A stretch of DNA of 64,000 nt from Atopobacter sp. AH10 (GTDB taxonomy: Bacteria; Bacillota; Bacilli; Lactobacillales; Aerococcaceae): assembly GCF_003664595.1 (NCBI RefSeq), contig NZ_QXPZ01000019.1, positions 62,001 through 126,000 on the forward strand. The letters are read 5' to 3'. The position numbers were made by a program, and so were the translations under genes. Every line of letters begins with the position of its first letter. The stretch's first letter is position 1. The notes beneath the pieces are model-generated. The model did not search any database, was not told the origin of the DNA, and saw only the letters and a list, made by a program, of their open reading frames with translations. Of this stretch, positions 3,964-22,858 are shown in pieces.

Positions 3964-3987
3964 GTGGGCGAATTAAATGTAAGAGAG

Positions 3988-4077
3988 TATCACAAGGGGA
4001 GCCTTAAAGAAGGCTGAGAAACGCTAGCGTTGACTCTTTGGACCTGATGAAGTTAGTACTTCCGTGGGGATGTGATC
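3988..4077 (+). promoter_or_regulatory. TPP riboswitch (THI element)
   Basis: It contains the diagnostic THI-box blocks in order: AGGGGAGCC, GGCTGAGA, the GACTCTTTGGACCTGATG segment with GTTAGTAC, and the closing GGGATGTGAT. Helix P1 forms between ATCACA (3989-3994) and TGTGAT (4071-4076). It precedes a hairpin terminator and then the pyrimidine transport genes, so thiamin pyrophosphate should switch the operon off by premature termination. Confidence 0.95.
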
Positions 4078-4092
4078 ATGATGTAGACTTTT

Positions 4093-8922: not shown

Positions 8923-9221
8923 ACAAGTTAAGAGATGCGTTGAAGAGATAAGTAATTAGTGGAACTTGCTCAGAGAGTCGGCGTTAGGTGGGAGTCGATC
9001 GAGGAAAGCTAGTGAAAATGGTCTTGGAGCAGTACAGTTGCAAGCTTCCAGTGAGTGATTGTCGGGATCTCCCGTTACAGAGAAAGAGTATAATCAGATC
9101 ATTCTGACGTACTTAATGAGGTAGTATTAGTGATAATACTATAAAAAAAGGTGGTACCGTGGAAGCTTTGGCTTTCATCCTTTTGCATTATAAACGTGCA
9201 AGGGGATGAAGGCTTTTTTTG
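8923..9221 (+). promoter_or_regulatory. T-box leader, probably methionine-specific, with terminator
   Basis: Classic T-box leader. The Stem I distal motif AGAGAG...GGTGGGAG is at about 8972-8993. The T-box AGGTGGTACCGTGG is at about 9149-9162. A terminator follows: GCTTTCATCC...TTGCA pairs with TGCAAGGGGATGAAGGC, then seven T (9171-9221). Pairing ATTAG (8955-8959) with CTAGT (9009-9013) leaves a specifier loop with AGTA on one side and GAAAATGG on the other, so the codon can be read as ATG. The antiterminator bulge TGGT pairs with a tRNA whose discriminator base is A, which fits tRNA-Met and excludes tRNA-Asn (the AAT reading). Uncharged tRNA should permit transcription of opp. Confidence 0.9.
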
Positions 9222-21148: not shown

Positions 21149-21484
21149 ATGGCATACGATGTTGTTATTGTTTCTAAAGAAATGGGTAAAGGGGAAGAAT
21201 CTCTAACTCAAACCTTGATGCTTGGTTTTATTCATACTCTTGCTGAAAGAGAAGAAAAACCTAAAAACATCATTCTTTATGGTGAAGGGGTTGCTTTAAC
21301 TTGCAAGGGGTCTGAAGCTATTGATGACTTGAAAGCTTTAGAAGCAGCAGGAGTTAATATTCTTTCTTGCGGTATTTGCTTGAACTTCTTAGAATTGGAT
21401 AAGAAGTTAGAAGTTGGTGGCGTGACAACCATGGGTGAAGTGGTTGACATTTTAGCAGCTAGCGATCACATCATCAAACCTTAG
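21149..21484 (+). CDS. YedF-like DsrE-family protein (selenium-metabolism-associated)
   Basis: Small cytoplasmic protein of 111 residues matching the C-terminal DsrE-like domain of YedF, the sulfurtransferase-like protein often found with selenium genes. The start GKGEESLTQTLMLGFIHTL, the central GVALTCKGSEAIDDLKALEAAG and the motif LSCGICLNFLEL with Cys74 and Cys77 are all recognisable, plus an extra Cys52. The usual N-terminal TusA-like domain of full YedF is absent. The ribosome binding site GAGGAGGAAGAAACTT is strong. Its neighbour downstream has an in-frame TGA. Role in sulfur or selenium transfer is inferred. Confidence 0.8.
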   Translation: MAYDVVIVSKEMGKGEESLTQTLMLGFIHTLAEREEKPKNIILYGEGVALTCKGSEAIDDLKALEAAGVNILSCGICLNFLELDKKLEVGGVTTMGEVVDILAASDHIIKP

Positions 21485-21526: not shown

Positions 21527-21570
21527 AGACAAGTTACTGGACTGATCTGGTAGCTTGTCTTTTGCTTTTT
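21527..21570 (+). terminator. Terminator after yedF-like gene
   Basis: AGACAAGTTAC pairs with GTAGCTTGTCT (one G-T pair) over a 12-base loop, followed by TTTGCTTTTT. Confidence 0.8.
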
Positions 21571-21667: not shown

Positions 21668-22858
21668 ATGGCCAAGACCTATCAGGCGTTTACGACTTCT
21701 TTAATGGGGAGTATGCCGAGAAGTCAAGACTTGTTAAAGGCTAAAGCCAAAGCGATGGATCAGACAGAAGAAAGTAAAACTGCCTATCAAGCTTTGCTAG
21801 CAAAAGAAACCGAAGAAATTGTTCGCTTTCAAGAGGAATGTGGCATTGATGTAGTGGTTAATGGGGAATTAGATCGGGATAATTACATGTCTTTCGTGGC
21901 TGAAAAAGTCCCAGGGATTCAATTAATGTCTTTGGAAGAAATTTCTGCTAGTTTGGAAGATCGGGAGCAATTTGAAAAAAGTCGGGCCAATATGGATGCT
22001 TTGGATGATACATTAAGTAGCCCGGTGATTGTCGATAAGATTGCTTTAGATGCAGAACTGGATTATAAAGAAATGCAGCAATTAAAGAAAATGACAGATC
22101 ACCCGATTAAGGCCACTATTCCAAGTCCTTACCTACTGACTCGTTCCATGTGGATGGATGAGATGGCAGGGAAATTTTACGATAGTCGGAAAGAATTAGG
22201 GAAAGATATTCAAGAAATGGTCTTGAATGAAACCAAACGTTTGATTGATTTAGGAGTAGATATTATTCAATTGGATGAGCCTATCCTTTCTGATGTGGTT
22301 TTCAACTGTGCTGAAGCAGGTTCTTCCTTCTACTGAGGGGCTTTATCAGCGAAGGTCAAGGTTGACCGAGAATTGAAATTTGCCGAAGAATTGATGAAAC
22401 CTGTTTTAGACTTGATTAATGCTTCTGGTTCTATTGGGGCTATCCACGTTTGTCGGGGGAATTGGACCAAGGATGAATCAGCACTCCTTGAAGGGGCTTA
22501 TGACAAGTTATCCAAATTCTTTACCAAGGTTGGCGCTAAGATGTTGAATCTTGAATTTTCTACGCCACGTGCAGGGGATGTCGGCCTGCTTTTTAAAAAT
22601 AATGACTTAGCTGACGAAATTATTTTAGGTTTAGGAGTCATCAACCCTAGAAGTGATGAGGTGGAAAGTGTAGAGGACATTGTCAATCGGGTAGAAGAAG
22701 CGCTGAAATACCTGCCAGCTGAACGGATTTGGCTGAATCCAGACTGTGGCTTTGCAACCTTTGCACAAAGGCCACTTAATCCTTATCCAGTGATCCAAGA
22801 AAAATTGAAGCATATGACGGAAGCAGCCCAAATCCTTCGGGATAAATATGTGAACTAG
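21668..22858 (+). CDS. MetE-like methyltransferase with in-frame TGA (candidate selenoprotein or broken gene)
   Basis: Cobalamin-independent methionine-synthase family protein (short MetE-C type) of 396 codons if the TGA at 22334-22336 (codon 223) is read through. Both sides stay in the same frame with no other lesion. The family's zinc ligands are intact downstream: HVCRGNW, the Glu in NLEFSTP and the Cys in NPDCGFATF. The TGA lies in GSSFY-x-GALSAK; I recall homologues having Cys at this point (F-x-C-G-A-L-S), so Sec for Cys is plausible. A GGU-loop hairpin sits 17-31 bases after the TGA. The part after the TGA has no ribosome binding site of its own. Alternatives are a recent nonsense mutation or a sequencing error. 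Ribosome binding site AAAGGGGGAG. Methyl acceptor unknown. Confidence 0.75.
22334..22367 (+). promoter_or_regulatory. TGA codon with SECIS-like hairpin
   Basis: After the TGA (22334-22336), GGTCA (22354-22358) pairs perfectly with TGACC (22363-22367) across the loop AGGT. The loop GGU begins 24 bases after the TGA, inside the 16-37 base range described for bacterial SECIS elements. It resembles the AGGUCU loop of E. coli fdhF. The stem is short, only five pairs. Confidence 0.5.

Follow-up and report, generated by a model that had tools for sequence, protein, structure and literature searches.

The gene at positions 21668..22858 (forward strand) of the analyzed DNA (the window, a stretch of 64 kb) appears to be split by an in-frame TGA codon; it is, with high confidence, a single intact MetE-like gene of the PF01717 family that encodes a predicted selenoprotein of 396 amino acids. 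The reading frames and the homologues place selenocysteine (Sec, U) at codon 223 (22334..22336, +), and recoding of this UGA is strongly supported by comparative evidence, so that we regard it as very likely. The gene begins with an ATG at 21668, preceded by the ribosome-binding site GGGGGAG, and its own stop codon ends at 22858. There are 222 codons 5' and 173 codons 3' of the TGA, and translation through it gives a single 396-aa PF01717 protein. A six-frame scan of the whole window identified this codon as the sole TGA with an open stretch of 90 or more codons on each side; five further stops divide such stretches, and all of them are TAG or TAA. By kinship, the source genome belongs to the family of Falseniella (Aerococcaceae, Lactobacillales).

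Conservation of the UGA codon among homologues

An initial search among 60 relatives yielded two further genes interrupted by a single TGA (53 and 48% identity; from another family and another genus), both with the TGA aligned at the identical codon, where the Cys homologues have Cys. The scan was then extended to 84,980 species genomes and yielded 80 homologues which, together with the window gene and two more Cys copies, make up an alignment of 83 rows. In this alignment, the column of codon 223 is invariant in the sense that it contains either TGA (18 rows) or a Cys codon, TGC or TGT (65 rows), and never another residue, a pattern that chance is far from explaining; each of the 18 TGA genes contains exactly one stop. 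The sequence-only reading had placed the TGA at a conserved-Cys position of a gene intact on both sides and had suggested an alignment of homologues as a check; the alignment bears this out, with Cys in most homologues and TGA at the same column in other genera. The Cys itself was correctly anticipated; the sequence context proposed for it, F-x-C-G-A-L-S, needs a minor correction, as the homologues mostly have F-M-C-A-x-L-S, although FMCGAL does occur in Bacillaceae.

The TGA genes form two groups. Group A includes genes from Companilactobacillus (3), Tissierellia KA00581, Atopococcus, Gemella (2), Facklamia (2), Vagococcus and Falseniella as well as the window gene, and group B consists of genes from MAGs assigned to Pirellulaceae (Planctomycetes), Bacteroidetes, Eisenbacteria, Verrucomicrobiia and Proteobacteria. 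Among 395 Lactobacillales genomes, the family is present in 10, with seven TGA places and four Cys places, and this MetE-like subfamily is the only one for which the Lactobacillales scans showed a single TGA within a strong full-length match. Both forms occur together in the genome of Falseniella ignava: the Sec form (L063) adjoins a YedF-like gene, whereas the Cys paralogue (L051) is located in an operon of the acyl-CoA-dehydrogenase/PhnD-like/OsmC type.

Protein identity 3' of the TGA is similar to or higher than that 5' of it, and in group A it is higher (64% versus 55% between the window gene and Companilactobacillus). The dN values for the 3' part are 0.13-0.29, with dS mostly saturated. 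Taken together, these values point to strong purifying selection on the sequence downstream of the TGA, and because of this selection truncation and pseudogene formation are both rejected. Of the alternatives to recoding, the best surviving one, still very improbable, is a programmed truncation in which the UGA terminates translation, each half is made on its own, the second from an internal TTG at 22373, and the halves then assemble. An open reading frame with this start does exist downstream, but the break would fall precisely in the invariant Cys/Sec column of the family, within a loop that precedes the zinc ligands, with neither a conserved start nor a visible ribosome-binding site, and in a gene that comes with a SECIS-like hairpin and Sec machinery (see below). 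We assign an even smaller chance to a nonsense mutation from TGC or TGT that abolished the enzyme, the main alternative considered in the sequence-only reading: these codons are one base away from TGA, and Cys predominates in the column and is probably its original state, but the idea is refuted by the presence of the same TGA in 18 relatives from several families and phyla without a second stop in any of them, by purifying selection that is equal on the two sides of the codon, and by conservation of the hairpin and of the zinc-site residues. A sequencing or assembly error at a single base, conceivable given that the source genome is a 2.2-Mb draft in 77 contigs, has a negligible probability and is excluded in practice because the same TGA is found in the independently sequenced Companilactobacillus, Facklamia, Gemella, Vagococcus and Falseniella.

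A bSECIS-like hairpin downstream of the UGA

Just 3' of the UGA, the window RNA can form a bSECIS-like hairpin (22354..22367, +; GGUCA-AGGU-UGACC), with 22 nt between the UGA and the apical loop and the invariant G as the second loop base. In group A, the hairpin is possible at one fixed place, with the same distance of 22 nt, in all 13 distinct sequences, and its loop consists of four bases, of which the second is always G (13/13). This geometry fits what is generally described for bacterial SECIS elements, and the two features by which a bSECIS is recognized, namely a hairpin just after the UGA and a G within the first two bases of the apical loop, are both present in group A.

Four of the five base pairs in group A show changes on both sides. 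In Vagococcus, the outer G-C pair is flipped to C-G, and in Falseniella the segment is recoded (KVKVD to RALES), with three neighboring pairs altered and the pairing kept. The covariation in group A is above that in every shuffle and every slid control; it is carried mainly by two distant rows (L062 and L063), and some outer pairs fail. For the window sequence, a random choice of synonymous codons yields an equally good hairpin with p of about 0.002. A single fold of the 47 nt 3' of the UGA has a stability that is not unusual compared to shuffled sequences (z -0.30); because the raw folding energy is unremarkable, the case for the hairpin rests on its position, the loop G and the covariation. 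The hairpin of group B is different, with a six-base loop and a CCCGC/GCGGG stem, and is strong in five of the six members and weak in the sixth (L121). None of the bSECIS families in Rfam matches the window. The eukaryotic SECIS model (RF00031) gives no match either, which is uninformative given that it finds none in all the control genomes.

Selenium machinery in the genomes with the UGA form

The source genome encodes SelB (358 bits, above the cut-off) and tRNA-Sec (66.8 bits; SeC(tca) according to ARAGORN), along with a cluster of selA, selD and a full-length yedF, and has two classical selenoproteins read by UGA, GrdA (CFVU) and GrdB (UGTCTRC). Thus, selA, selB, selC and selD, which the sequence-only reading had listed as genes to look for, are all found, and none of the observations that it had named as fatal to the candidate (lack of selB or selC, TGA in no other genome, or correction of the base) holds; its candidate selenoprotein is supported by the TGA column (18 of 83), the hairpin, the sel genes and the purifying selection. 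Under the proposed mechanism, tRNA-Sec and SelB would decode UGA 223 as selenocysteine, guided by the bSECIS hairpin directly 3' of it. Among the other 17 TGA genomes, 16 have selB above the cut-off, and the same 16 have a tRNA-Sec of at least 60 bits. The remaining TGA genome is a fragmentary MAG of 1.6 Mb (L128), in which no selB scores above the cut-off and the tRNA-Sec match is marginal. Given that SelB is also frequent in genomes with the Cys form (17 of 25), its presence is a requirement for the Sec form but does not set it apart. The source genome also contains glycine/betaine-reductase-type genes (L047:4604-18626 and G000:C11:85991-87025), including GrdA and GrdB, both with UGA, GrdC/GrdD-like genes and a thioredoxin system, located near selA, selB, selD, tRNA-Sec and yedF.

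Protein family, fold and predicted zinc site

The protein matches the PF01717 profile with 108.6 bits (cut-off 21). By homology to MetE, the zinc ligands are predicted to be H260 and C262 of the H-x-C motif (codons at 22445..22453, +), E296 (22553..22555, +) and C360 (22745..22747, +); all four residues are invariant in 68 sequences and align to the MetE zinc motifs, in agreement with the earlier claim that the zinc-site motifs are retained. A structure search retrieved Thermotoga maritima MetE (1XDJ; Z 37.5, rmsd 2.4 A over 337 residues (VIA)) and 3RPD (Z 37.5). The AlphaFold model has a mean pLDDT of 89, with values of about 55-58 for the Sec loop (residues 211-230). This family-specific loop, which contains residue 223, directly follows the DEP strand and is flanked by the substrate-binding strand and the zinc H-x-C motif; it is placed on the barrel side that carries the zinc site in MetE, a placement to be read with the low confidence of the loop.

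The protein is accordingly described here as a predicted single-domain barrel of the MetE superfamily with a putative zinc site, distinct from canonical MetE. It shares with the latter (PF01717/TIGR01371; T. maritima 1XDJ) the catalytic-domain barrel and, by alignment, the H-x-C...E...C zinc ligands, but lacks the N-terminal domain, is only about 23% identical and has its own Cys/Sec loop. With 396 aa and 101 bits, it falls outside TIGR01371 (canonical MetE, about 750 aa, cut-off 930 bits), and the source genome has a canonical MetE of 760 aa encoded by a separate gene; its sequence shows a gap at the place of the Sec loop. The short MetE-like 'methionine synthases' (PRK04326, PRK06233/YxjG type; 3RPD, 1YPX) are similar in being single-domain PF01717 proteins of 340-400 aa but differ in their gene neighbors, and the scores of the NCBIfam methionine-synthase models all remain far short of their cut-offs, the best being PRK04326 with 138.5 bits against a cut-off of 406. 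The June 2026 release of NCBIfam has no model that scores above its cut-off for the MetE-like selenoprotein.

Evolution of the Cys/Sec exchange

In the IQ-TREE phylogeny, which covers all 83 rows, the members of group A form a single clade (support 100/100), and group B is a separate clade (100/100) that contains one Cys member, from Verrucomicrobiales (L130:1858-2994). At least three changes between Cys and Sec are needed on this tree. Cys is the commonest residue in the column and probably the ancestral one, so the history that we infer has Sec arising from Cys twice and reverting once. The Cys form nested within the Sec clade of group B likely reflects a return from Sec to Cys once the machinery had been lost; such a reversal would be expected to leave no selB, in agreement with the finding that no selB scores above the cut-off in this genome. 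The family thus shows Cys-to-Sec exchange in two clades, with a probable return to Cys in one of them, and its hosts include the human-associated Gemella and Facklamia.

Relation to known selenoproteins

The MetE-like selenoprotein family appears to be new to the list of selenoproteins, with the recoding mechanism itself being known and an unpublished or GenBank-only annotation being possible. The 2026 inventory (PMC13188914), which covers 119 families of prokaryotic selenoproteins, has no PF01717 or MetE-type entry, in agreement with the suggestion of the sequence-only reading that MetE-like proteins are absent from the standard list, and no such selenoprotein is among the nine new families in the deep-Sep paper (PMC12013277); a search of the literature, including other reviews, for a MetE-type selenoprotein found none. 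The mentions of 'methionine synthase' in PMC8318568 and PMC9402790 refer to MetH, not to the MetE-like family.

The known bacterial selenoproteins (GrdA, GrdB, FdhA, HesB-like; PMC13188914, Table 1) resemble the MetE-like family in that the UGA is located at the Cys column of relatives, a hairpin lies just downstream, and selA, selB, selC and selD are present in the genome. They differ in that none has the PF01717 zinc barrel, most being thioredoxin-fold or redox proteins with UxxC or CxxU motifs; unlike these, the MetE-like Sec context is F-Y/M-U-x-x-L-(S/A), without a neighboring Cys. The family thereby adds a selenoprotein to the MetE zinc-barrel fold, where none is listed. Its Sec genes are easily missed because annotation will probably treat them as pseudogenes or as genes for truncated proteins.

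Gene neighborhoods and possible function

Upstream of the selenoprotein gene, the window encodes a short YedF (21149..21484, +), a selenium-metabolism protein with the CGIC motif that scores 119.3 bits against TIGR03527 (cut-off 110) and covers only the DsrE half (profile positions 88-194). In group A, YedF is encoded directly upstream in 10 of the 12 loci and adjoins the gene in the 11th; in the 12th, a rhodanese-type gene is upstream. A hairpin resembling an intrinsic terminator is located between yedF and the selenoprotein gene (21527..21570, +), and similar intergenic hairpins are visible in the group A loci L053, L055, L056, L058 and L060, so the two genes may be only partly co-transcribed.

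The Cys forms are found in two operon types. The first combines genes for acyl-CoA-dehydrogenase-like, PhnD-like, MetE-like and OsmC-like proteins, and the second consists of TusA, DsrE, a TusA-OsmC fusion and the MetE-like protein. Several Cys forms, in Alloiococcus, Siminovitchia, Chloroflexi and Nitrospinota, adjoin selD, selB or selA. The Alloiococcus otitis locus (L074:3474-13174) encodes YedF, acyl-CoA-dehydrogenase-like and PhnD-like proteins, the Cys form, an OsmC-like protein, two further acyl-CoA-dehydrogenase-like proteins, SelD and SelB. In Paracoccus ferrooxidans plasmid pFER4 (L143:3881-9627), a TusA domain is fused to the N-terminus of the Cys form, as is also the case in P. versutus pBEN (L142); the plasmid gene run consists of TusA, DsrE, two unknown proteins, the TusA-MetE-like fusion, selA and trxB, with a cysteine desulfurase nearby. 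An acyl-CoA-dehydrogenase-like gene paired with a PhnD-like gene lacking a signal sequence is conserved upstream of many Cys forms (L081:4023-5999 and relatives). The nearest NCBIfam models of this pair are mycobacterial Rv1679 (FadE16) and Rv1680, far below cut-off, and a literature search on ergothioneine degradation and on Rv1679/Rv1680 for these neighbors yielded nothing usable.

Because the neighbors include YedF, TusA, DsrE, OsmC, rhodanese and selA/selB/selD, along with the Paracoccus TusA fusion, we tentatively propose a role in selenium/sulfur relay or in dealkylation. Under this proposal, Sec together with the zinc site would take or pass selenium or sulfur, or a methyl or alkyl group bound to either, the exchange partners of Sec would be persulfide carriers of the YedF/DsrE/TusA type, and the net role would be supply or recycling of selenium (or sulfur) rather than methionine formation. 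The more specific version, a MetE-type zinc barrel repurposed as a relay in which Sec/Cys 223 supplies or reclaims selenium, is somewhat more doubtful; methylated or betaine-type organoselenium or organosulfur compounds are examples of possible selenium sources. The neighborhoods resemble those described for YedF (TIGR03527), YedE, OsmC and SelD (PMC5322559), with yedF upstream and several Cys forms next to selD, selB or selA; the MetE-like gene is not named among the selenium-metabolism candidates of that study. Counting against the relay, some of the Cys operons with acyl-CoA-dehydrogenase-like and PhnD-like genes have no known link to selenium.

The main functional rival, which we rate as rather unlikely, is a Sec-enhanced methionine synthase that transfers a methyl group to homocysteine from folate, a corrinoid or another donor, with no relay involved. 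The fold of the MetE catalytic domain, the zinc ligands and the annotation of relatives as methionine synthases are compatible with such an activity, but the source genome already has its 760-aa MetE, canonical MetE lacks the Sec loop, no NCBIfam methionine-synthase model comes near its cut-off, and the neighbors are selenium/sulfur carriers, not methionine genes. If the relay is real, it would represent an unrecognized step of selenium metabolism whose enzyme turned into a selenoprotein on two or more occasions. Through its conserved association with selA, selB, selD, yedF, TusA, DsrE and OsmC, the family makes the question of selenium delivery upstream of SelD testable on a concrete enzyme.

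Elsewhere in the window, a TPP riboswitch and a T-box leader (3985-4087 and 8931-9185, respectively) both score above the Rfam gathering threshold and are ordinary.
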